From IMG/VR virus record IMGVR_UViG_3300021165_002854, positions 1 to 21,499 of that record: DNA of 21,499 nt; one strand, written 5' to 3'. Below the pieces are notes generated by a model, which had not been told where the DNA came from, did not search any database, and saw only the letters and a program-made list of their open reading frames with translations. Position 1 is the stretch's first letter; every line of letters starts with the position of its first letter. Origin of the DNA: a virus. Positions 1 through 20,259 of this stretch are shown here, one piece after another. The position numbers and the translations under genes are program-made.

Positions 1-3000
1 AAAATAACCAATGCTAAAATAGATGATAAGGCAATTGACTTAAGTGATTCAAGAATTTGGGATATGTCAGGAGAGTATTTAGAATCTGCTAAAGATGCAA
101 TAATTGCTCCAATTACTACGGTATATAATTTTTTAAATTATACTTATCAACTTATAAATCCATTTAATGATGGAGAAAATCAACCTACTGAACTACAAAA
201 AAATAATGATACAGCTAACACAACTATAGGATATTCATCTTATAATGGACTTAACTATGAAATATCAATAAAAAGAAATCTATGGGCTTATTCAAATCAA
301 AAAAATATAGTAAGCTCTTACGGTAGTATTGCTAATGTGGGATTCCTAACGTATACTAATGCAGCTTATGAGTACGTAGAAACAGCAGATTTTACAAGAA
401 TGCTTATAAGTTGTTTAAATAATCTTGATAATGAATATGATATAATTAATATAAAAGTAAGACCGCTAGACACAAAAACTAGTATACAACTTAATGTTCC
501 TATTATAAAAACCGTAAAAGTAACTATAGATGAAAAGATAGAAGTCATAGCTGGAACAAAAGTTATCGTAGACGCAAAAATAATTGATCAAAATGTTGAA
601 TTTATTATTCCGGTTACACTAACTTTTAATGATAGTGATTTTATAAAAAGTTTTTCAGTTCCAGAAACAGTAAAACAACCTATAGATTTTATAGGAGACA
701 CTACTAAACAAGGCTTTGTTAAACCTCCCGAACCAGAAACACCTCCAACTCCAGCAGAACCCGCTATAAATTTAGAAGAAGTTCAAACAAGCGAAACTGA
801 AAAATATAAATCAGCTTTTGAAGTATTAGTTAGGACTATACAATTATATTCTTTAGATAATGCGATAGGACAAAATATCGAGATAGATAAAAAAAATATA
901 GAAGTAAATCTATTTAGCGACGCTATTTATTCAGAATTTACAAAAGATCTTTTTTCTGTAGGATTGTTCTCTACTATGTTAGATGTATTTAGAACTCTTA
1001 AAGACGAAAATAAGAACGGAAAGCCTAGTACTCAAATTAATATTGGAACAGAATCTATTAGTTTACAGAAACTATGTGAAGACTATGACGCTGATATGGC
1101 AAGTAAAGGTACTTTAGAAGATAATGATAAAATGCTATTAATTAGAGCTATTTTTGGATTTCATTTCGGACTTCTAGGAAATGTTACTACCGCTTCAAGT
1201 TTATTACAGTATGATGCAGTCGTAGATTATAATAGTTTAATGAAAACTTATGTAGTTCCATATCAATTTAATTCAGGAGTATTAGAAGGAACACAGCTAA
1301 ATCATCCAGTATATCTTCAATTAGGACTAGTAGTTATGATACTAAATCATATTTGTACTCTATATGATAGTAATAATCATGGAAAAATAAATAGACCTAT
1401 TGTTTATTTTGATTATAACAATAAAACTAATCTATGTTTATCTACTCCTAAACATTTATCGACTAATCCTTATGATATATTAATTCCTTTTCAAGGAACT
1501 AATGATGATTTTGCTGATATAATAGAACCATCAACAATAACTACTGGTAAAAATGAAAATGAACCAGAAAGTAGAAGAAGAAAAGTAATAAGACCGCTAA
1601 AAGAAGAAGTATCTGGCTCTTTTTCTAATGTATTTACTCCTAGCAATCCTGATGATTCTGAGGAAGCCGTAAAAGATCGTGTTTCTTTAGGATTGCCGCT
1701 ATTTAAAGTAGGAAATGATCCTAAAGTAGAATCTCATCGTGGAAGAACTATGAATATTCTAGTAAGTGCTGATTATTTATTAAAAATAGTTGGTAGCTAC
1801 ACTAAAAATAATGGATCTGGGGATGTATATGTTCAACAATTTTTAGAGCAAATCTTATATGATATAAATAAGACTTTAGGAGATTTTAACGTATTTAGAT
1901 TAGCTTATGACGATATCGGAAATGCTGCTCGCATAGTAGATGATCAGCTAACTCCAAATATAGAGAAAAATCATATTACTGAAACTAATAAAACTCAATT
2001 ACCTCTTTTTGGACTAGGATCTATAGCTAAAAGCATAGAAATTAGAACCGAAGTTTCAAGTAAGTTATCAAATATGATAGCTATATCTGCTAATGCAGAT
2101 TATAAAAATCAAGCAAATCTATCTAAAAATGCAGATAGCTATGGATTTTATAATTTTGCGTATAGAGATAGGTATCTTCCAAATAGAACAGAATATACTA
2201 GTAGTGTAAATCTTCCAACAGATACTATGATTAGATCTGCTCAACAATTTAATAATGCTATTACTACTTTTTATAGTAATGCTACTCCTTCTAGCACTGC
2301 TGTTGGTCATGCTACAAACTATTACATAGAGAGAATGTCAAAAATAAAAAATGAGTCTCCAGCTACAAGATCATCAGTAATGATTCCTGTAAGTCTTAAT
2401 TTTAGTATTGATGGAATGTCAGGATTTGGAATGGGACATAGTTTTACAGTGTCTGAGCAATTTCTACCTTATACTTATAATCTTAGTTTAACAGATCCAT
2501 ATGGAAATAAAGATCAAGTAAATACAGTAGGATTTGCGATGGTTGGATTAGATCACACTATAGAAAATAATCAATGGTCCACCGCAGTTAGAGCAAATAT
2601 GATCTATTTAAAAAAGAGAAGTGATTTTGAAGCTGAACCACCGAGAGTATTAGAAGCTCCTAGTGCTTTACAAGTTAGAGATGATACTACTACTTCTACG
2701 ACTAACACAAGCACTGAAGCTAAATCTAGTAATTGTGACTCTTGTGAAACTTTTAAGAGTAGATATGATAAGGATAAAGAAGGTGTTAAGGCGAGACAGC
2801 AAGGAACTCAAGTTCCAGCATATAGCTATAACGCATTTAAAACCGTAACTTATAAAGAAAATAACACTATATCAAGTCCTAATAAAAATGTAGGAGGAAT
2901 GAAAAGTATTCTTGGAGTAGTAATTCATCATTCAGCTGGAAATCTACAATCAGACATATCAGTTATGAAAACTGGTAATTCAAATGGTAAAGTTTCTTAT

Positions 3001-3402
3001 CATACATTAGTAGCAAAAGATGGAACTAGATATAATTTTGTTTCTGAAAATGATCAAGCTTGGCACGCTGGATGTTCTTATTTTGAGCATAAAGACTTGC
3101 CTAATGGTTTTGTATGTAATGATGTTAATTCTTATTTTTTAGGAATTGCAGTTGAAGGAGCTCCTAATTATGTAGGAACAGGTGGAACTAGCACTATTAC
3201 AGCGATAGAAATAGATTCTGTTGCTAAATGGATAGTAGAAAAAATTAAAAAATATAATATGCCTGATGATCTGTCTACTATAATTACTCATGGAACTGTT
3301 TCATGTTTTAGAACTACAAACACAAAAGATGATGTAGTTAAGAGTGTAGAAAAAGCAATAAAAGCTAGAATTAGACAGTTATTACCGCCAAAGAAAAAGT
3401 AA
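1..3402 (+). CDS. Large virion protein with C-terminal N-acetylmuramoyl-L-alanine amidase domain (5' end outside window)
   Basis: The frame is open from base 1, so the gene probably starts upstream; the first in-window ATG is at 64, and the numbering below counts from it. At least 1,112 residues. Residues about 1-930 match no family I recognise; they include a Pro-rich linker (about 220-234) and are rich in Asn, Thr and Ser, as in tail or baseplate proteins. Residues about 945-1095 look like an Amidase_2/PGRP domain related to T7 lysozyme: IHHSAG with H955 (counterpart of T7 H17), SYH with Y979, WHAG at 1000-1003, and THGTVSC giving H1076 and C1081 as the other zinc ligands. The family cleaves the amide bond between MurNAc and L-Ala in peptidoglycan. 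Fusion to a very large protein beside another virion-type gene suggests a virion-borne hydrolase used at entry rather than a free endolysin. The amidase call is firm; the structural role is inferred. The tail is basic (PPKKK). Confidence 0.82.
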   Translation, partial: KITNAKIDDKAIDLSDSRIWDMSGEYLESAKDAIIAPITTVYNFLNYTYQLINPFNDGENQPTELQKNNDTANTTIGYSSYNGLNYEISIKRNLWAYSNQKNIVSSYGSIANVGFLTYTNAAYEYVETADFTRMLISCLNNLDNEYDIINIKVRPLDTKTSIQLNVPIIKTVKVTIDEKIEVIAGTKVIVDAKIIDQNVEFIIPVTLTFNDSDFIKSFSVPETVKQPIDFIGDTTKQGFVKPPEPETPPTPAEPAINLEEVQTSETEKYKSAFEVLVRTIQLYSLDNAIGQNIEIDKKNIEVNLFSDAIYSEFTKDLFSVGLFSTMLDVFRTLKDENKNGKPSTQINIGTESISLQKLCEDYDADMASKGTLEDNDKMLLIRAIFGFHFGLLGNVTTASSLLQYDAVVDYNSLMKTYVVPYQFNSGVLEGTQLNHPVYLQLGLVVMILNHICTLYDSNNHGKINRPIVYFDYNNKTNLCLSTPKHLSTNPYDILIPFQGTNDDFADIIEPSTITTGKNENEPESRRRKVIRPLKEEVSGSFSNVFTPSNPDDSEEAVKDRVSLGLPLFKVGNDPKVESHRGRTMNILVSADYLLKIVGSYTKNNGSGDVYVQQFLEQILYDINKTLGDFNVFRLAYDDIGNAARIVDDQLTPNIEKNHITETNKTQLPLFGLGSIAKSIEIRTEVSSKLSNMIAISANADYKNQANLSKNADSYGFYNFAYRDRYLPNRTEYTSSVNLPTDTMIRSAQQFNNAITTFYSNATPSSTAVGHATNYYIERMSKIKNESPATRSSVMIPVSLNFSIDGMSGFGMGHSFTVSEQFLPYTYNLSLTDPYGNKDQVNTVGFAMVGLDHTIENNQWSTAVRANMIYLKKRSDFEAEPPRVLEAPSALQVRDDTTTSTTNTSTEAKSSNCDSCETFKSRYDKDKEGVKARQQGTQVPAYSYNAFKTVTYKENNTISSPNKNVGGMKSILGVVIHHSAGNLQSDISVMKTGNSNGKVSYHTLVAKDGTRYNFVSENDQAWHAGCSYFEHKDLPNGFVCNDVNSYFLGIAVEGAPNYVGTGGTSTITAIEIDSVAKWIVEKIKKYNMPDDLSTIITHGTVSCFRTTNTKDDVVKSVEKAIKARIRQLLPPKKK

Positions 3403-3435: not shown

Positions 3436-4083
3436 ATGTTAAGATATTATCCTTCATTTAGAGTAAAAACAAATCTTACTACTAATGGTAATGAATACAA
3501 AAATTCTTCTGGTCCTTACAAAGGAAAGTATTATATTACTTATAACGGCAAAGCTTTTACTGGTTCTAATCCAATAATTGGACCTAATGAAGAATTAAGT
3601 CGAATAGTAAAAAATGAAACTAGCGATCTACAATCTAATGAAGGATTAGTTGTTTCTAATAATAATTTAAATTTAAATTCTATACCTTTACAATTAAGAA
3701 ATAATATTGCTAAAAATACCAGATCTGGAGCGCCAGTTTCTTATTTTCCTTTTGCAATAGAATCTGATTATAAAAAAGGATATCTGCTAAGATCATTTAT
3801 AAAAAGAGTAAATGATAAAGGATTTGTAATTGAGATCTCAAATCAAGAATATGATAATTTTAGTAATGGTACCGTAAACTACGATGTATCAGATTATTTA
3901 ATTCTTCAGATTTTATGGAAAATCACAGGTCCATTAAATACTATAAGAATAGATCAATATAATACTAGAGTTGGCATAATAGACACTAATAAAAGATTAG
4001 TCGAAAATGGTAATAAAACTTTTTTAGGAATCACTGATTTTATTGGCGGAGAATACACAAAATTTGCTAGACCAACACTTTAA
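3436..4083 (+). CDS. Hypothetical protein, probably virion-associated
   Basis: 215 aa, no family recognised with confidence. The N-terminal third contains a short segment around residues 27-50 with the pattern PYKGKYYITYNGKAFTG followed by NP and GPNEEL. I associate this kind of segment with structural proteins of large phages; that is memory of similar sequences, not a search result. No signal peptide or membrane segment is visible, and there are no Cys residues. The gene follows the amidase-bearing virion gene after 33 bases. The ATG at 3436 was chosen because the earlier ATG at 3431 reaches a stop after three codons. No Shine-Dalgarno sequence is present. Confidence 0.7.
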   Translation: MLRYYPSFRVKTNLTTNGNEYKNSSGPYKGKYYITYNGKAFTGSNPIIGPNEELSRIVKNETSDLQSNEGLVVSNNNLNLNSIPLQLRNNIAKNTRSGAPVSYFPFAIESDYKKGYLLRSFIKRVNDKGFVIEISNQEYDNFSNGTVNYDVSDYLILQILWKITGPLNTIRIDQYNTRVGIIDTNKRLVENGNKTFLGITDFIGGEYTKFARPTL

Positions 4084-4140: not shown

Positions 4141-5442
4141 ATGTACTATATAATAGAAAAACAAGAACAGTTAGAAAAACTGCAGTGTAGTGACTCTGCA
4201 TTTATTCATTTGATTACTTCTAATCCAAGTTATCATCCTAAATTGGCTAGACCAAGTTTAGTGTATTATAATAATGGAGATAAAGGTTATATATTTGCTA
4301 TAGAACATTGCGAAAGCTTCTCATTAGGCATACAATACATAGAAGACTTTTTAAATAAACACACTAAGATCTATTTACTAGATAAAAAAAGTCATTCTTA
4401 TCATCTTAATCTGCCAAAAGCGATAGATTTAAACTTAGTATCTATAGATTCTACAAATACAGTAAAAGAGTTTAATTGTGATACTCAATTTCATAAGTCA
4501 TTTTATCAAAATAAATTAAATTTATCTAATATAGATTGCATAATTCCTATTGCAAAACATTATGAAAAATGTGAATGTCTATATGATCAAGTAAAATATC
4601 TTATAGGATTAGAAAAAGATACAATATCACAAGAGGACAGCATCCTAAACGCATATAAGACTGTTGAGCAGAGCGGAATTAAAGTAAAAGAAGAATACAT
4701 AAGAGAAGTATATGGCTTGCAAAACAGCGCGGGTGTGATTGATAATGGCATTATTTATTCAAATTACAATCTTTATAATACTACGGCAAGACCAACAAAT
4801 TCATTTAAAGGAATTAATTTTTTAGCAATACCTAAAGAAGGAGATTATAGAAAATGTTTTATTCCAAAAAATGATTATTTTGTAGAGTTTGACTTTGATT
4901 CTTATCACTTAAGACTAATTTCTAAACTTATTGGATTTGAAGATCAACAAGAGTCTTTACATCGATATTTAGGAAGACTTTATTATGATAAACAAGAATT
5001 AACTGATGAAGAATACAAGCAATCAAAAATAATAACATTTAGACAGCTTTATGGCGGAGTAGAAGATCAGTATAAGCACATAGATTATTTTTCTAAAATA
5101 GAAGATTATGCTAATTTACAATGGAAAAAATATAAAGCAGATCAATCATATATACTTCCTACTGGAAGAATCTTAAATAAGCATAGTTCTATTACTAAAT
5201 ACAAGCTATTTAATTATATTTTACAGAATTTAGAGACTAAAACAAATGTTCAAAAGATATTAAGACTAAATCAATATTTATCAAACAAAAAAACAAAGCT
5301 AGTCTTAATCACTTATGATGCTTTTTTAATAGATTTCTCTATATCAGATGATAAACAGACTTTAATTGACATAAAAAGCTTACTACAAGAAGATGGATTT
5401 CCAGTAAATCATAAATACGGTACAGATTACTCATTTTCTTAA
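4141..5442 (+). CDS. Small divergent family A DNA polymerase-like protein (second PolA homologue)
   Basis: 433 aa. The C-terminal half carries the polymerase motifs of family A in order. Residues 214-231 (TTAR...NFLAIP) parallel the TGRLSS...LQNIP region of E. coli Pol I, with R217 equivalent to R668. Motif A is DFDSYHLRL at 251-259: D251 matches D705, R258 matches R712, but H256 replaces E710. Motif B is K296...F300...Y304-G305, matching K758, F762, Y766 and G767. Motif C is TYDA at 391-394: D393 matches D882, and Ala replaces E883. Both metal-binding aspartates are thus kept. The N-terminal 190 residues show no clear 3'-5' exonuclease motifs, and the protein is much shorter than Pol I (928 aa) or the other polymerase here (767 aa). 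It sits between virion genes and an unknown gene, away from the replication cassette. It could be a specialised gap-filling or primer-extending polymerase; activity and role are unknown. Confidence 0.78.
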   Translation: MYYIIEKQEQLEKLQCSDSAFIHLITSNPSYHPKLARPSLVYYNNGDKGYIFAIEHCESFSLGIQYIEDFLNKHTKIYLLDKKSHSYHLNLPKAIDLNLVSIDSTNTVKEFNCDTQFHKSFYQNKLNLSNIDCIIPIAKHYEKCECLYDQVKYLIGLEKDTISQEDSILNAYKTVEQSGIKVKEEYIREVYGLQNSAGVIDNGIIYSNYNLYNTTARPTNSFKGINFLAIPKEGDYRKCFIPKNDYFVEFDFDSYHLRLISKLIGFEDQQESLHRYLGRLYYDKQELTDEEYKQSKIITFRQLYGGVEDQYKHIDYFSKIEDYANLQWKKYKADQSYILPTGRILNKHSSITKYKLFNYILQNLETKTNVQKILRLNQYLSNKKTKLVLITYDAFLIDFSISDDKQTLIDIKSLLQEDGFPVNHKYGTDYSFS

Positions 5443-5924: not shown

Positions 5925-6236
5925 ATGAAAAGACAATTAAATGAAGTAAAAAAGCTACAGAAGATAGCTGGATTATTAAAAGAAGAAGAAAATCTTGAAT
6001 CAAGTAGAATAGAATCAAAACTAATGTCAACAATAAAAGGTCAATCTAATGATATGTCCTTTTTAAGAGGAGTAAGCGATCAAGAGTTTGTAGCCGCTCT
6101 AGAAAAGTTAGGAGAAGATTATGAAGTAGAAGACAGCGATATGGGCACACAATACTATATAGGAGAAGAAGGCGATGGTATTATTTTTGTAAATGACGAA
6201 GGAAATTGGCGCGCTGGTGATTGGCATGTAGCTTAA
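5925..6236 (+). CDS. Small acidic protein with shared N-terminal leader (putative packaged protein)
   Basis: 103 aa. Residues 4-18 (QLNEVKKLQKIAGLL) are identical except at one position to residues 4-18 of the 330-aa protein at 19267. Both proteins continue x-E, giving an L-x-E site ending at residue 20. The rest is acidic and unrelated to the other protein. In T4, internal head proteins carry a short N-terminal capsid-targeting sequence that the gp21 protease removes after (L/I)-x-E, so a similar role is a reasonable inference. The remainder (residues about 45-103) ends in short beta-like stretches and a Trp-rich tail (GNWRAGDWHVA). It is the last gene before the terminator at 6256. No known domain recognised. 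Confidence 0.75.
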   Translation: MKRQLNEVKKLQKIAGLLKEEENLESSRIESKLMSTIKGQSNDMSFLRGVSDQEFVAALEKLGEDYEVEDSDMGTQYYIGEEGDGIIFVNDEGNWRAGDWHVA

Positions 6237-6345: not shown

Positions 6346-7167
6346 ATGATGGATATATCACAGTTGAAACAGAGACTGGCCTCTCTACAGAACCCCAAAG
6401 GCCAGAGTAAAGAAAGATCACAGACTATTTGGCGACCAGGCATCGGTAAACATTCTATTAGGATTGTTCCTTCGGCCTATGACAAGTCTAACCCATTTAA
6501 AGAAATGTATGTGTATTACGAGATTTCAAATCGTATGATGCCAGCATTATCTAACTATGGTGAAGCAGATCCCATTCTTGAGTTTACAAAAAAGCTTAGG
6601 CAATCTTCTGAAAAAGAAAATTGGCAATTAGCTAAAAAGCTTGAACCAAAGATGAGAGTATTTGTTCCTGTCATTGTTCGAGGAGAAGAAGACAAAGGCG
6701 TTCGTCTTTGGGAATTTGGTAAGCAAGTTTACATGGATCTTCTTGCAATCGCAGAAGATGAAGACGTAGGAGATTTTACAGATCCAATTGAAGGACGTGA
6801 TCTTACAGTTGAGACTCAAGGTAAAGAAACCACAGGTCTTATGTATAACACTTCTACTGTAAGGATCAGAACAAAGATCACTCCGCTTACTGATGATGCT
6901 AATAAAGCAAAACTTTGGTTGACTACACAGCCTGATCCTATGACTTTGTTTAAGAAGTTCTCTTATGAGGAAATGAAATCAGCCTTGCTGACTTATTTAA
7001 ACCCAGAAGAAGAAATTAAAGAGAATGCTGATTCAGTAGAAAGCAAAGCACCAGAATCAGATCTTCCTTGGGACAAACCGCAAGAAAAACCAGCTCATAA
7101 CAGTTTTACATTGAGCACTAAGAAGTCAGACTTAGAATCAAAAATTGACGATCTATTCTCTTTATAG
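6346..7167 (+). CDS. 32: gp32-like single-stranded DNA-binding protein
   Basis: 273 aa, close to T4 gp32 (301 aa). A short basic N-terminus is followed by the OB-fold core pattern: KHSIRIVP and NPF at about 35-50, then the DPILEF segment, then PKMRVFVPVIVRGEE and VRLWEFGKQVY at about 100-130. The tail is acidic, with DLPWD and a final DDLFSL, the usual partner-binding tail of phage SSBs. There are no cysteines, so the zinc-finger of T4 gp32 is absent. It coats ssDNA during replication and recombination and works with the adjacent UvsX and helicase. Two adjacent ATGs (6346, 6349) are possible starts. A GC-rich hairpin lies early in the coding region (6376-6405). The first part of the gene uses more GC and more CGN Arg codons than most neighbours, which may reflect high expression. 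Confidence 0.88.
   Translation: MMDISQLKQRLASLQNPKGQSKERSQTIWRPGIGKHSIRIVPSAYDKSNPFKEMYVYYEISNRMMPALSNYGEADPILEFTKKLRQSSEKENWQLAKKLEPKMRVFVPVIVRGEEDKGVRLWEFGKQVYMDLLAIAEDEDVGDFTDPIEGRDLTVETQGKETTGLMYNTSTVRIRTKITPLTDDANKAKLWLTTQPDPMTLFKKFSYEEMKSALLTYLNPEEEIKENADSVESKAPESDLPWDKPQEKPAHNSFTLSTKKSDLESKIDDLFSL
6376..6405 (+). other. GC-rich hairpin in the 5' coding region of the SSB gene
   Basis: CTGGCC at 6376-6381 pairs perfectly with GGCCAG at 6400-6405 around an 18-base loop, 30 bases after the start codon. T4 gp32 represses its own mRNA by binding structured leader RNA, so an autoregulatory role is conceivable but unproven. Confidence 0.4.
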
Positions 7168-7186: not shown

Positions 7187-8260
7187 ATGCCAAAAGCAAA
7201 CGAAAGTTTAAACGCAAAGCTGTCTACTGCGATTAATTCAAATTTTAATCTAGACAACTTTAAAAAGTCAAAGAATCTATCTACGACTTCTATTAAGTTC
7301 AAAGATCCTAAATGGATCCCACTTTCAGATGCTTTTAGTGATGGCTTACAAGTACCTGGTATTCCTATTGGACATATCACATTACTTAGAGGTCACTCTG
7401 ACACGGGTAAAACTACGGCCTTACTCGAGGCCGCAGTTTCCTGTCAAAAGATGGGAATTTTACCAGTGTTTATTATCACTGAGATGAAATGGAGTTGGGA
7501 ACATGCAAGACAAATGGGACTTCATTATGAAGAAGTAGCTGATTCTGATGGAGTAGTTCATGATTTTAAAGGTAATTTTATCTTTATTGATCGAGAAAAG
7601 TTAAATTGCATAGAAGACGTATCTGCATTTATAGCTGATATTTTAGATGAGCAGAAAAAAGGAAATCTGCCTTATGATCTTTGTTTCTTTTGGGACTCAG
7701 TAGGATCTATTCCATGTAGAATGAGTATTGAAAAGTCTAGTAATAACAATGAGTGGAACGCTGGAGCTATGTCTCAACAGTTTGGTAATTTTATCAATCA
7801 GCGAATAATCATGTCCAGAAAAGAAAGCCAACCTTATACTAATACTTTAGTTGCAATTAATAAAGTTTGGGTAGCAAAACCTGAAACTATTATGAGTCAA
7901 CCTAAGCTAAACAACAAAGGCGGTAACACAATGTACTTTGATGCTTCTATGGTTATTACATTCGGAAATATTGTTAGTGCTGGAACAAATAAGATTAAGG
8001 CTACTAAAAATGGCAAAGAAGTAGAGTTCGCTAAAAGAACAAAGATTAGTTGTGATAAAAATCATATCACAGGAGTAACTGCTGTAAGCAAGCTTATTAT
8101 GACTGTTCATGGATTTATTAAAGATACTCCAAATGAATTAGAAAAATACAAAAAAGCTCACAGCAGCGAATGGAGTAAAATTTTAGGTAGTGCAACATTT
8201 GATGTAGTTGAAGTAGAAGACTCTACCTCTAACGCAGACATTTTCGACAAAGAAGATTAA
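7187..8260 (+). CDS. uvsX: UvsX/RecA-type recombinase
   Basis: 357 aa. The RecA core has a Walker A loop GHSDTGKTT at 69-77 (K75, T76) and a Walker B strand ending in D170 (CFFWDS). An N-terminal helical region precedes the core, and an acidic tail (VEVEDS...DKED) ends the protein. RecA-family proteins form ATP-dependent filaments on ssDNA and catalyse strand exchange; in T4-like phages UvsX starts recombination-dependent replication on gp32-coated DNA. It lies 19 bases after the SSB gene and one base before the 5' nuclease gene, so co-transcription and coupled translation are likely. The length is close to T4 UvsX (about 390 aa). A short GC-rich hairpin (CGGCC/GGCCG) sits just past the Walker A codons. 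No Shine-Dalgarno sequence. Confidence 0.85.
   Translation: MPKANESLNAKLSTAINSNFNLDNFKKSKNLSTTSIKFKDPKWIPLSDAFSDGLQVPGIPIGHITLLRGHSDTGKTTALLEAAVSCQKMGILPVFIITEMKWSWEHARQMGLHYEEVADSDGVVHDFKGNFIFIDREKLNCIEDVSAFIADILDEQKKGNLPYDLCFFWDSVGSIPCRMSIEKSSNNNEWNAGAMSQQFGNFINQRIIMSRKESQPYTNTLVAINKVWVAKPETIMSQPKLNNKGGNTMYFDASMVITFGNIVSAGTNKIKATKNGKEVEFAKRTKISCDKNHITGVTAVSKLIMTVHGFIKDTPNELEKYKKAHSSEWSKILGSATFDVVEVEDSTSNADIFDKED
7416..7433 (+). other. Short GC-rich hairpin inside uvsX
   Basis: CGGCC at 7416-7420 pairs with GGCCG at 7429-7433 around an 8-base loop, just after the Walker A codons. It is unusual for base composition in this AT-rich window; function unknown. Confidence 0.35.
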
Positions 8261-8261
8261 T

Positions 8262-9299
8262 ATGACACCAGAACAGAAAAAACTGTTTGATTCTTTAGAT
8301 ATTAAAGAGTCAACAAAGGAAGTTGTGCAAGAAAAAGAGCTAAGCGTAAATGATCGAGTGTTAATAGTAGATTCATTGAATAGCTTTCTAAGGTCTTTTG
8401 CTGTTATTCGTCATCTTAATCCTTCGGGTAATCATATAGGTGGGCTAGTTGGATTTTTAAGATCATTATCTTATACTATAAATCTAGTTAGACCCACCAG
8501 GGTTATCTTAGTCTTTGACGGCAAAGGAGGATCTACAAATAAAAGATATCTTTATCCAGAATACAAAGCTAATAGAGGAATAAGAAGAATAACTAATTGG
8601 GATCTTTTTGATGATCAACAACAAGAATCAGAAGCTATTACAAATCAACTAACTAGACTGGTACACTATCTAAAGTGCTTACCTGTAGATCTAATTTCAG
8701 TTGATAAAATAGAAGCAGATGATGTTATAGGTTATATAGCTACTAAATTACAAGGAAATGTTACTATAGTATCTAGCGACCGAGACTATTTACAATTAGT
8801 ATCTGAAAAAATTTCTGTATATTCGCCTATAAAGAAAAAGTTTTATGATGAAAAGACTATAATAAAAGAATATGATTCTTCACCGAATAACTTCTTAATG
8901 CAAAAAGTATTACTTGGAGACACTGGAGATAATGTACCTGGAGTTAAAGGAATTGGTCAAAAGACTTTAGCAAAAATGTATCCTGAATTAAGAGATGATC
9001 AAATTATTACTTTAGATGAGATACTTGATAAAGCTAAAAAAACTGAAGGTAAGAACTATATTAATATAAGAAACTTTGAGTATCAACTAAGAATAAATGA
9101 AAAATTAATGGATTTAAGAAATCCAAATATACCAGAAGATTCTTTAGTTGAAATTCATAATATGATAGAAAGTCCTACTAAAACTTTAGACTCTAAAGAG
9201 TTTATTAGGATGTATGAAGAAGATCAATTAGGAGGCGCTATAAATAATTTACAAAATTGGATATTCTCTAATTTTCATAGTTTAGCAAAATATAAATAA
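8262..9299 (+). CDS. 5'-3' exonuclease / flap nuclease (T4 RNase H-like, FEN family)
   Basis: 345 aa. The PIN/FEN-type nuclease core has its acidic metal ligands in order: D37 (IVDSLN), D86 (VFDGKGG), E151, D153 and D154 (EADDVIG), D173 and D175 (SSDRDY), D220 and D223 (GDTGDN). The last pair is followed by the helix-hairpin-helix segment VPGVKGIGQKTL that grips DNA. The family removes RNA primers and 5' flaps, as T4 Rnh and the Pol I N-terminal domain do. This fits well here because the large polymerase has no 5' nuclease domain of its own. The start ATG is one base after the uvsX stop. The first 25 residues are a charged extension that is probably disordered. Confidence 0.87.
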   Translation: MTPEQKKLFDSLDIKESTKEVVQEKELSVNDRVLIVDSLNSFLRSFAVIRHLNPSGNHIGGLVGFLRSLSYTINLVRPTRVILVFDGKGGSTNKRYLYPEYKANRGIRRITNWDLFDDQQQESEAITNQLTRLVHYLKCLPVDLISVDKIEADDVIGYIATKLQGNVTIVSSDRDYLQLVSEKISVYSPIKKKFYDEKTIIKEYDSSPNNFLMQKVLLGDTGDNVPGVKGIGQKTLAKMYPELRDDQIITLDEILDKAKKTEGKNYINIRNFEYQLRINEKLMDLRNPNIPEDSLVEIHNMIESPTKTLDSKEFIRMYEEDQLGGAINNLQNWIFSNFHSLAKYK

Positions 9300-9310
9300 A
9301 ATAAATAGTT

Positions 9311-10684
9311 ATGAGTGTACTAGGAACATTAAATAGTTACGGAAACGGTTTTCAAATTAAAGTTATCTCTAGTTTATTAAAACATAAAGAGTTTTTGCAA
9401 AACATTGTTGATGTACTAGAGCCAGAAGAATTTGATAATCCAAGTCATCAATGGATTATTAAACAGACCATAGGATATTTTCATAAGTATCATACTAATC
9501 CAACTCCAGAGTATCTATCTATTGAAGTAAAAAAGATGGATAATGATGTTTTAAAAGTTAGTGTAGTTGAACAGCTTAAAGAAGCTTTAAAAAATGCTAA
9601 TGATGATAGGCAATATGTAGAAGAAGAGTTTAGTAATTTCTGTAAAAATCAACAGTTAAAAAAAGCTTTACTTACTTCAGTAGATCTTCTAGGACGAAGT
9701 CAATATGATGATATTAGAAATATAATTGATAAAGCTTTAAAAGCTGGACAAGATAAACTAATAGGACTAGAGTATGAAAAAGATGTAGAAAGCAGATACA
9801 GAAATGAAGACAGAAAACCTATTGCAACTTCTTGGCCTCATATAAATGATCTTTTAATGGGAGGTCTTGGAATGGGAGATTTTGGAATTGTATTTGGAAG
9901 TCCTGGAGCTGGAAAATCATGGATTCTTATTAGCTTAGGAGCTGAAGCAGTTAAACTTGGCTTTAATGTTAACCATTACACCTTAGAGCTTTCTCAAGAA
10001 TATGTAGGAAAGCGATATGATTCTATTTTTACAGGAATTGACTTTCAACAAATTCATCTTCATAGACCTGAAATAGAATCAGCAATTGAAAAGCTTCCAG
10101 GAAAACTAACCGTAAAAGAATTTCCTATGGGTAAAACTACTATATCAACTATAGAGTCTCATATTCAAAAATGTATAGCCTTAGGAAAAACTCCTGATTT
10201 AGTTATCATAGATTATGTTGATCTATTAAAATCAAAAAGTAGATCTTCAGAAAGAAGAGATGAAATAGATGATGTGTATACTGCTACAAAAGGAATGGCT
10301 AGACAATTTAAAACTCCAATTTGGACAGTATCTCAAGTAAACAGAGCAGGAGCAAATGATGATGTAGTAGAAGGAGATAAGGCCGCAGGATCTTATGGTA
10401 AGATAATGATCGCCGATTTTATTATGTCTCTATCAAGAAAAAGACAAGACAAAGTAAATGGAACAGGCAGAATGCACATCATTAAAAACAGATTTGGGAG
10501 TGATGGGATGACATATGGAGCTAAAATAAATACTTCTAATGGTACTATAATCATTGAACCAAATGAGCTAGGAGAAGAAGAATTTACGACCTCTTCGCCT
10601 CAGTCAAAGTCTATATCTAAGTCAAATTTTTCTACTGATGAAAAACAATATTTAAAAAGCAAATTTTTTGAATTAGGAATTTAA
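9311..10684 (+). CDS. dnaB: Replicative DNA helicase, DnaB/T4 gp41 type
   Basis: 457 aa. A helical N-terminal domain (about 1-150) precedes a RecA-like ATPase core. Walker A is GSPGAGKS at 196-203 (K202); Walker B is VIIDYVDLL with D301; the sensor/Q-like segment is TVSQVNR; and the H4-type KNRFGSDG lies near residue 395. These match hexameric replicative helicases that unwind DNA 5' to 3' ahead of the fork. No separate primase gene or TOPRIM domain is seen in the window. It starts 11 bases after the nuclease gene with the context 'aaatagttATG'. The C-terminal 40 residues are Ser-rich and may be a flexible partner-binding tail. Confidence 0.9.
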   Translation: MSVLGTLNSYGNGFQIKVISSLLKHKEFLQNIVDVLEPEEFDNPSHQWIIKQTIGYFHKYHTNPTPEYLSIEVKKMDNDVLKVSVVEQLKEALKNANDDRQYVEEEFSNFCKNQQLKKALLTSVDLLGRSQYDDIRNIIDKALKAGQDKLIGLEYEKDVESRYRNEDRKPIATSWPHINDLLMGGLGMGDFGIVFGSPGAGKSWILISLGAEAVKLGFNVNHYTLELSQEYVGKRYDSIFTGIDFQQIHLHRPEIESAIEKLPGKLTVKEFPMGKTTISTIESHIQKCIALGKTPDLVIIDYVDLLKSKSRSSERRDEIDDVYTATKGMARQFKTPIWTVSQVNRAGANDDVVEGDKAAGSYGKIMIADFIMSLSRKRQDKVNGTGRMHIIKNRFGSDGMTYGAKINTSNGTIIIEPNELGEEEFTTSSPQSKSISKSNFSTDEKQYLKSKFFELGI

Positions 10685-14214: not shown

Positions 14215-16518
14215 ATGCAAAAAAGTTATGTGTTAGTCGATTCTATCGACAAGTTAAAAGCTATGATTAATCATATATCTGAAAAAGAAATTGTAGCTTT
14301 TGATATTGAAACGAATAGTTTAAATTCTAGAAAAGGATCTGTAATAGGCTTTTCAGTCTCTGCAGAAGTTGGAGAAGGTTATTATCTTCCAACTATGATT
14401 CATAAAGATGGTAATTTAGTTGATTCTACTATAGAAAATATAAGTAGTCATGATTTAGCTAAAAAGTATTTAACTTTATTAACTAAGAAAAAAATTATTG
14501 CTCATAATTTTGCGTTTGATGGACCTTTCATTAAAAATTTCTATGGAATAGATTTATTGCCTAGTTTATATGCCGATACAATGTTACTTGTGCACACTGT
14601 TCAAGAAGAAGGCGCAGGTTTTGGATCTGGTAAACCTTTTGGTCTTAAAGAATTAGCAAAATCAATTCAAAAAGAAATAGGACTTGATGTAGAAAAAGAC
14701 GCTAATGAAGAGCAATTAGAATTAAAAACTTCTATTAAAGCTAATGGAGGATCAATAACTAGAGAGAACTATGAAATTTGGAAAGCTGATATAGAAATCT
14801 TAGGAAAATACGCAGCAGCAGATACTGATTTAACTTTAAGACTTTATAATCACTTTGTAAAAAAACTTTATGAAGAGCAATTAGATAAATTATTTTTCGA
14901 AGATGAAGTTATGCCTTTATATAGAGAAGTAACTATTCCTATGGAGCAAGTAGGAGTAAAATTAGATCTTGATCTTGTAAATAAGACTAATGAAGAGATT
15001 CAATTAGATATGCAAAAATACTTAAGCGAAGTAACTAGCAATCTAATGGCTAAACAAGAAGTCAAGATGTGGATAGTAGTTAAAGCTAAAGAGAATTTCC
15101 CAGTTAATAATAGAGGATCTTTTGCTCAAAGATATGTAAAAGCTTTAGGAGTAGACTTTCCTAAATCAGAAAAATCTGGAAAGCTTGCTATTATAGACGC
15201 AAATATAAGATCAATGCCTGAATGTGATCTAAAGAACTTTCTAGCTACTGGAGATACTCAATTCTTAGATGATACAGTAGCAACTAAGGTAAGTCTTGAA
15301 ATGTGGAAAGAACAGAATGATGGATCTTATTTTAATATCCAATCTAAAGATCAAATGGGCGAAATAGCTTTTGCTGCTCTAGGAATTAAACCAATATCTG
15401 AAACTAAAAAAGGAAAGCCTCAATTTGATGATGATTTAATTCAAAGCATATCTGCTAAACATACTTGGGCTAAAAATCTAAGAATTTATAATAAGCTACT
15501 AAAAATCAAATCAACTTACGTAGATAGGTTTTTAAATAATCAAGAAGAAGGTCGATACTATCCTTATTATAAACAACATGCTACTGTTTCAGGTAGATAT
15601 GGATCTGACATGCAACAGTTGCCTAGACCTAAAGAAGACGGAGATGATGATCCAATAGTAATTGAATATAATAATAGAGTTAGAGCATTTTTTGTACCAG
15701 ATAATGAAAATATATTTGTAGACTGTGATTATGAATCACTTGAGCCTAAAGTGTTTTCTCATGTTTCAGGAGATGATGGACTTAAAGAAATCTTTAAAAA
15801 CAATTGGGATTTTTATTCTACTATTGCGATTAAAACTGAAAAACTACAAGGATACTCAGCTGATAAAAAAGCTGATAACTTCTTAAAGAAAATAGCTCCA
15901 GCTCTTAGAAATAAAGCTAAAGCTTATTCTCTAGGTATTCCTTATGGAATGGGAGCTTATGCTCTTGGAAAAAATATTAATGTCTCTACAAAAGAAGCTA
16001 AAATTCTTGTAGATGGTTATTTAAATGGATTTCCAGAACTTAAAAAATGGATGGAACAGTCTAAAGAGCACGCTAAATCATTTGGATTTGTAAAAAATCA
16101 AGTTGGAAGAGTTAGACATCTGCCAAAAGTAAAAAAGCTATATGATATTTTTGGAGATAATCTTTTAGATTTTAATTACAAACGTGAACTTGAGATGGAA
16201 CACGGAAAAGAAAAAGTAAAAGTAATTGCTAGAGATTATACAAATGGAATTAATAACTCTTTAAACTTTCAAATTCAATCATTAGCAGCATCAATAGTAA
16301 ATAGAGCAGCAATAGCCATAAATAGAAAGTTTAAAGAACTAAATATAAAAGGTTGGGTATGCGCTCAAATTCATGATCAGCTAGTTATGGAAGTAGAAAA
16401 ATCAAGATCAGAAGAAGCCTCTAAAATTGTACAACACTTAATGGAAAACACAACTAAACTTAGTATTGAGTTAGTTGCGCCACCATCATTAGCTGTAAAT
16501 CTTAGAGATGGTCACTAA
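14215..16518 (+). CDS. polA: Family A DNA polymerase with 3'-5' exonuclease (replicase, Leu762 type)
   Basis: 767 aa. N-terminal proofreading exonuclease: Exo I D30 and E32 (FDIET), Exo II D102 (HNFAFD), Exo III Y199 and D203 (YAAAD). The polymerase follows: SGR with R461 (like R668); motif A DYESLEPK with D505 and E510, K512 replacing R712; motif B with K569, L573, Y577 and G578; motif C HDQ at 720-722 with catalytic D721. L573 aligns with F762 of E. coli Pol I. Variation at this position affects dideoxynucleotide discrimination and is used to group virioplankton polymerases; Leu is common there. No 5' nuclease domain is present, and the separate gene at 8262 may supply it. This is the likely main replicase, working with the DnaB helicase and SSB. 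The start ATG follows 'gtagttat'. Confidence 0.93.
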   Translation: MQKSYVLVDSIDKLKAMINHISEKEIVAFDIETNSLNSRKGSVIGFSVSAEVGEGYYLPTMIHKDGNLVDSTIENISSHDLAKKYLTLLTKKKIIAHNFAFDGPFIKNFYGIDLLPSLYADTMLLVHTVQEEGAGFGSGKPFGLKELAKSIQKEIGLDVEKDANEEQLELKTSIKANGGSITRENYEIWKADIEILGKYAAADTDLTLRLYNHFVKKLYEEQLDKLFFEDEVMPLYREVTIPMEQVGVKLDLDLVNKTNEEIQLDMQKYLSEVTSNLMAKQEVKMWIVVKAKENFPVNNRGSFAQRYVKALGVDFPKSEKSGKLAIIDANIRSMPECDLKNFLATGDTQFLDDTVATKVSLEMWKEQNDGSYFNIQSKDQMGEIAFAALGIKPISETKKGKPQFDDDLIQSISAKHTWAKNLRIYNKLLKIKSTYVDRFLNNQEEGRYYPYYKQHATVSGRYGSDMQQLPRPKEDGDDDPIVIEYNNRVRAFFVPDNENIFVDCDYESLEPKVFSHVSGDDGLKEIFKNNWDFYSTIAIKTEKLQGYSADKKADNFLKKIAPALRNKAKAYSLGIPYGMGAYALGKNINVSTKEAKILVDGYLNGFPELKKWMEQSKEHAKSFGFVKNQVGRVRHLPKVKKLYDIFGDNLLDFNYKRELEMEHGKEKVKVIARDYTNGINNSLNFQIQSLAASIVNRAAIAINRKFKELNIKGWVCAQIHDQLVMEVEKSRSEEASKIVQHLMENTTKLSIELVAPPSLAVNLRDGH

Positions 16519-19266: not shown

Positions 19267-20259
19267 ATGGGATCACAATTAAATGAAGTACAAAAACTTC
19301 AAAAAATAGCCGGTTTGCTGAATGAATCTGATTTAAATGAGTTGTCTCCTCAACTTAGAAATGCATCTGCAAAAAAAGCAGCAGATAAATATAGATTTTC
19401 AAATGCTCTTACTGCTCCAATTAAAAATAGGCAATACAATAAATTTAAAGAAATGCCGCCAGCGCTTAAAGCAATAGGAGAAAAACTTGGAGAAGAGATT
19501 GCTTTAGAAAATCAATATTCTTATGATGGAATATCGCTTGTAAAAGCTATCCACGATACTAAAGGCAATGCTATGGGTCAAGATGACTTTATTAGATATA
19601 AAGTTTTCTTAGGAAAAGGCTCAAGATTTTTTGAAGTAATAGTTGATGCAGATGCTGAAGAGCCAATACCTACTGAAGGTAGTGTAAGACTTAGTGCTGA
19701 ATTAGCTAGAAAAGTTCTTAACTTTATAAAAAAGCTTAAACCAGAAATAGCTGGTAGTAAGCCTAGTGCCTCATCAAATGAATTGGAAGAAGGAAAAGTA
19801 GGACCTGTAGATGTTAGTGGAGTTAAAAAAGCCATGAAAAAACCTGAAGTAAAAAAAATGGCTAGCGCTTTAAAAGGTAATAAAGAAGCAATTAAAAAAT
19901 TATCTGCGGCGTTATCTAATCCCGAAGCTTTAGCAATACTTTCTAAAAATTCTATTTCTGAAGATGAAAAAAAATACTCAAATAAAGAAAGAATAGCTAG
20001 ATTTCTTAAATATTCTGGACTAGGTAGTATTGCCGGATCTATATTAGGACCATTAGCCTTAATGACCGTAGGAATTACCGATCATCAAATGTTAATTAAT
20101 GTTGTCGCATCAGCTATAACTGGAGCCTTAGTTGCTGCTGTAGCAGGAGCTGCATCTACTGATGGATATACAAGATCAAATGTAGTAACTAACGAATCAG
20201 AAGATCAAGATTTAGAATCTCAAATAGCTAAAGTATTAGCTTTAGGAAAAAATAATTAA
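19267..20259 (+). CDS. Leader-bearing protein with C-terminal membrane hairpin (putative packaged protein)
   Basis: 330 aa, no known family. Residues 4-18 (QLNEVQKLQKIAGLL) match the leader of the 103-aa protein at 5925 in 14 of 15 positions, again followed by an L-x-E site ending at residue 20. A mixed alpha/beta region (about 60-160) follows, then a Lys-rich, probably helical region (about 175-240). Two hydrophobic Gly/Ala-rich segments (about 251-270 and 275-297) could form a membrane hairpin, and the tail is acidic. If the leader is a head-targeting signal, this would be a protein carried in the capsid and possibly delivered to the host with the DNA. That is inference. It stands alone between two terminators. 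Confidence 0.78.
   Translation: MGSQLNEVQKLQKIAGLLNESDLNELSPQLRNASAKKAADKYRFSNALTAPIKNRQYNKFKEMPPALKAIGEKLGEEIALENQYSYDGISLVKAIHDTKGNAMGQDDFIRYKVFLGKGSRFFEVIVDADAEEPIPTEGSVRLSAELARKVLNFIKKLKPEIAGSKPSASSNELEEGKVGPVDVSGVKKAMKKPEVKKMASALKGNKEAIKKLSAALSNPEALAILSKNSISEDEKKYSNKERIARFLKYSGLGSIAGSILGPLALMTVGITDHQMLINVVASAITGALVAAVAGAASTDGYTRSNVVTNESEDQDLESQIAKVLALGKNN

Follow-up and report, generated by a model that had tools for sequence, protein, structure and literature searches.

Analysis of the window, by which we mean the whole stretch of 21,499 nucleotides from the IMG/VR record IMGVR_UViG_3300021165_002854, reveals that the 433-residue protein encoded upstream of p142 (Table 1) is a new member of the already described divPolA1 family, a small family A DNA polymerase that occurs beside a regular one. 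The initial annotation knew of no named example of this small form; one exists, since the family was named by Yutin et al. (2024, Virol J 21:200, PMC11348598). The passages of that article drawn on here report divPolA1 in 14 phages, including Flavobacterium phage immuto, and describe a protein with conserved palm residues, a truncated thumb and a dead exonuclease, with replication genes downstream. According to the same passages, divPolA1 comes in addition to a regular PolA, PolB or PolC, the regular DNA polymerases (DNAPs) lie in variable neighbourhoods and are adjoined by GroEL/ES, and divPolA1 is suggested to take part in replication. The protein of the window (hereafter mini-pol) shows the same traits: it is homologous to the immuto protein, its thumb is truncated, the palm is kept and the exonuclease site is lost, replication genes follow downstream and the regular DNAP lies beside GroEL/GroES. 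A literature search under the name divPolA1 returned only Yutin et al. and its preprint, and a free-term search on phages with two polymerases gave nothing direct.

Table 1. Features of the window and layout of mini-pol (positions in nucleotides unless given as residues)
Feature	Position	Strand	Basis
Long tail-type protein with C-terminal amidase domain (PF01510), upstream of p215 and the replication cassette	64-3402		
p215, conserved gene upstream of mini-pol in the lineage of the window	3436..4083	+	
divPolA1 mini-polymerase (mini-pol), 433 aa	4141..5442	+	ORF list, profile, model, residue conservation
mini-pol, exo-like N-terminal domain	residues ~1-155		
mini-pol, truncated thumb	residues ~156-205		
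mini-pol, palm/fingers	residues ~206-433		
mini-pol, motif A	D251/H256/R258		
mini-pol, O-helix	K296/F300/Y304		
mini-pol, further active-site residues	N358/Q362		
mini-pol, motif C	D393		
p142, 142 aa	5478..5906	+	immuto gp002 homologue
Single-strand DNA-binding protein (SSB)	6346..7167	+	phrog_1192
RecA/UvsX-type recombinase	7187..8260	+	homology to immuto gp005, annotated recombinase
5'-3' exonuclease / flap endonuclease (FEN)	8262..9299	+	homology to immuto gp006
DnaB-type replicative helicase	9311..10684	+	homology to immuto gp007
Regular PolA (767 aa) carrying a 3'-5' exonuclease domain (PF01612) together with PF00476	14215..16518	+	

Family assignment and active site

Taken as a single query, the window mini-pol has no Pfam or PHROG match of note. 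PF00476 is matched individually by 43 of the 62 homologues collected, and the profile built from these 62 sequences matches Klenow with an E-value of 9e-9, its residues falling on the Pol I motifs, as well as Taq and further Pol I chains, with a weak match to Pol theta. A comparison by hhalign with a shallow alignment of regular PolA sequences gave an E-value of 0.2 with the motifs lined up, and nothing for the N-terminal domain. R217, D251, R258, K296, F300, Y304, G305, D393, H256 and A394, on which the initial annotation was based, are all found at the positions claimed and align with the Pol I motifs. Invariant among the 62 homologues are D251 (D705 of Pol I), K296 (K758), F300 (F762), Y304 (Y766), Q362 (Q849) and D393 (D882), so that the check proposed for the two aspartates came out in favour of a polymerase. 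R217 is kept in 61 of 62, and N358, which like Q362 was absent from the initial annotation, is the counterpart of N845 and is conserved in 60. Thus profile, conserved residues, AlphaFold2 model and structure matches (see below) uphold the proposal that the genome has a second family A polymerase of minimal form, lacking the exonuclease and intact in its palm/fingers site. Judged from sequence and model, mini-pol is plausible as a catalytically active family A DNA polymerase. That the ORF is not a chance one follows from its relatives in at least 587 IMG/VR stretches and from purifying selection (dN 0.26, dS 1.87 against the homologue L149).

Two positions of the active site deviate from Pol I. 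That of E883 carries Ser or Ala in the mini-pol family, and that of E710 carries His (H256) in 147/147 true divPolA1 members examined. The Glu of the latter position is the steric gate of family A polymerases, and apPol in which it is mutated to Ala incorporates GTP (PMC12529929); activity or sugar selectivity of mini-pol could therefore be altered by these replacements. The published text of PMC11348598 is silent on the steric gate, and His in every true member examined is an addition to that account. In a wider search, Glu at this position occurred in two rows only, namely L018 and the regular polymerase of Roseobacter phage CRP-3. The former (L018:3885-5108) is a distant small polymerase outlier with SSB- and RecA-like genes nearby and is possibly a sister type.

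Predicted structure

The AlphaFold2 model obtained from the 62 sequences (pLDDT 93.5, pTM 0.90) has the palm/fingers fold that had been anticipated. Its top PDB matches in Foldseek and VIA-align 2 are all of Pol I type, with VIA Z-scores of 26 over approximately 403-412 residues; for Bst Pol I, VIA-align 2 gives Z 26.3 and an rmsd of 4.0 over 409 residues, mini-pol 1-433 aligning to Bst 300-876. Fold and motifs A, B and C are common to mini-pol and the Klenow, Bst and apicoplast family A polymerases, whereas mini-pol lacks the exonuclease site and carries His for E710 and Ser/Ala for E883. It also has some 85-95 thumb residues fewer, as profile positions 193 to 203 span Klenow chain positions 234 to 328. 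In the model, the thumb is a stub whose region contains one short helix only (184-191), and its loss could leave mini-pol unable to hold DNA alone.

None of the acidic residues between positions 1 and 155 is invariant among the 62 homologues, and only E6, E58 and D96 reach conservation of at least 90%. Mini-pol has thus lost the exonuclease site that four carboxylates form in family A, in agreement with the earlier remark that the N-terminal region has no clear exonuclease motif. The domain nevertheless still aligns in fold to the exonuclease-domain region of Pol I, as seen from the aligned range only. The divPolA2 protein of the barbavirus family, as described in the passages of PMC11348598 drawn on here, is likewise a second, thumb-poor and exonuclease-less polymerase beside a regular DNAP. 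It is set apart by this description, having an unrelated N-terminal globular domain and a variable neighbourhood, whereas mini-pol has an exonuclease-type fold and a fixed neighbourhood.

Relatives and distribution

Searches by tblastn recovered full-length homologues in two phages, immuto (37.6% identity over 99%, E 4e-81; gp001, whose annotation reads 'DNA polymerase family A') and an uncultured phage of 484 kb. A third homologue, in Microcystis phage Mel-JY01, covers most of the length of mini-pol. In IMG/VR, a first search yielded 18 loci and a profile scan at least 587 confirmed stretches encoding mini-pol relatives, compared with the 14 genomes given in the consulted passages of PMC11348598. 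Seven contigs assigned to bacterial or archaeal MAGs also carry mini-pol; these are probably phage contigs within the bins. Many large phages carry divPolA1, and their hosts are probably marine and freshwater bacteria.

Gene neighbourhood and the coupled partner p142

The initial annotation placed mini-pol away from the replication cassette. On the contrary, it is the first gene of the SSB-RecA-FEN-helicase cassette in approximately 100 loci, in which the genes run from tail genes through a p215-like gene to mini-pol, p142, SSB, RecA, FEN and helicase. Phage immuto has the same gene order, a full-length mini-pol homologue and a regular PolA, and differs from the window in that another small gene, gp003, takes the place of p103 between p142 and SSB. 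A virion-linked role, also put forward at first, gained no support: nothing in the sequence speaks for it beyond the tail genes upstream, and downstream order and homology point to replication. The Bacteroidetes-type promoter TANNTTTG was sought in the 75 bases before mini-pol and found in 2/34 cases against 4% in the control, that is, nothing. In the window, two otherwise different proteins (5925-6236 and 19267-20259) have in common the N-terminal tag QLNEVxKLQKIAGLLxE, and L128 has a start resembling it, YQLQKLAGLLKE; a targeting or propeptide function is possible.

The gene p142 is strictly coupled to divPolA1. Scanning IMG/VR with a p142 profile, without use of mini-pol, yielded 66 further loci, several of them on contigs also reached via mini-pol. 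Mini-pol lies directly upstream of p142 in all 65 readable loci, with gaps of -28 to +37 bases, the 66th locus being cut at its start. Among 50,697 phage records, p142 is confined to the six in which mini-pol is encoded. The protein changes less rapidly than mini-pol (dN against L149 of 0.10, compared with 0.26 for mini-pol) and is modelled as a small alpha/beta fold (pLDDT 88). It has no match in PHROG and a best E-value of 0.14 against the sequences of solved structures. The best VIA Z-scores of the model, 5.7 for polyomavirus T-antigen origin-binding domains and 5.5 for ACT domains, are below trust, and its viral matches in Foldseek are noise apart from one uncharacterised phage homologue. 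No gene resembling p142 appears in the passages of PMC11348598 drawn on here.

The regular polymerase of the same genomes

The PolA noted at 14215 by the initial annotation was confirmed as a full enzyme with an exonuclease domain, having PF01612 and PF00476 matches. It is followed by HSP20, GroES (17285) and GroEL (17584), the last two recognised from their translations and immuto counterparts. In the window as in immuto, it is the regular PolA and not mini-pol that stands apart from the replication cassette, near GroES/GroEL. The immuto enzyme (gp199) is 53% identical to that of the window. In the latter, the 762 position is occupied by Leu (AKAYSLGIPYG) and the motif C Asp is followed by Gln (IHDQ); mini-pol differs in both respects.

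A large PolA does not always accompany the homologues, as a survey proposed with the initial annotation shows. Long records with mini-pol encode either a regular PolA (immuto, G008, G010-G013, G020, G021, G023) or a PolB (Mel-JY01, LR756508, G018, G019); in L079 (G009), a 110,998-base record that is possibly a fragment, divPolA1 is present and no PolA, PolB or PolC was found. Since mini-pol is retained irrespective of the family of the main polymerase, it probably has a task distinct from bulk replication.

Proposed role and alternatives

With a probability of about one half, mini-pol is an accessory, non-proofreading, low-processivity polymerase that fills gaps or extends D-loops, a role suggested by its context of FEN, SSB, RecA and helicase. 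Built of palm and fingers, an inactivated exonuclease-fold domain and a stub thumb, it would most likely retain addition of nucleotides to a primer, as its intact active site suggests, and would synthesise without proofreading and with a weak grip on DNA, hence presumably with low processivity. As the leading gene of the SSB-RecA-FEN-DnaB cassette and as an extra beside the regular polymerase, mini-pol most likely serves short-patch synthesis in replication or recombination: it may fill gaps left after primer removal by FEN, or extend D-loops made by RecA. The p142 protein probably acts together with mini-pol, presumably in contact with it. A stronger version, in which the two form an obligate two-component enzyme, p142 supplying the DNA grip of the missing thumb and the His gate admitting ribonucleotides so that mixed RNA/DNA primers are made for the fork or for D-loops, appears distinctly improbable.

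It is also quite unlikely that divPolA1 is the main replicative polymerase and that the regular PolA, PolB or PolC serves repair or another task. The position of divPolA1 as the polymerase of the conserved replication cassette, with the regular DNAPs in variable neighbourhoods (as also stated in the consulted part of PMC11348598), would agree with such an exchange of roles, as would G009 (111 kb) with no other DNAP found. However, an enzyme that lacks a proofreading site and nearly all of its thumb fits poorly with the copying of approximately 160 kb, the exonuclease domain of the regular polymerase is intact, and a regular DNAP is present in the other long records, G009 being perhaps incomplete. 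The lack of proofreading, the reduced thumb and the adjoining RecA and SSB would suit a translesion or repair polymerase that deals with damaged phage DNA and has no part in normal replication, but helicase and FEN are located in the same cassette and the gene is kept by very many phages, which makes this function unlikely.

Synthesis or extension of RNA-containing primers has a similarly low probability. The His that replaces the steric-gate Glu throughout the family may, judging from the sequence, admit ribonucleotides, as the GTP incorporation by the apPol mutant would suggest, and helicase and SSB are encoded in the same cassette. The bulky His may, however, still exclude the 2'-OH, and F300 (F762) is kept. 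Moreover, the priming role suggested by the initial annotation is weakened by the separate DnaG-type primase (gp091) that immuto encodes, visible there because the genome is complete; for the same reason mini-pol was rejected as a primase replacement. A search for zinc-ribbon primases gave sub-threshold matches in immuto and G009, the latter providing a primase candidate, and a very weak one in LR756508, with none in Mel-JY01 and G008. Finally, the replacement of E883 and E710 and a sequence that changes faster than those of p142 and RecA might indicate a catalytically dead scaffold, its fold being kept for binding partners or DNA; conservation in 62/62 homologues of both metal-binding Asp and of the K758, F762, Y766 and Q849 equivalents renders this highly improbable.

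The accessory gap-filling or D-loop-extending polymerase is therefore the explanation that we retain. A widespread group of large phages keeps a second polymerase without full thumb or proofreading, whatever main polymerase they use, and knowing the function of divPolA1 would show how small a part of the Pol I hand suffices and why one polymerase is not enough for a phage.
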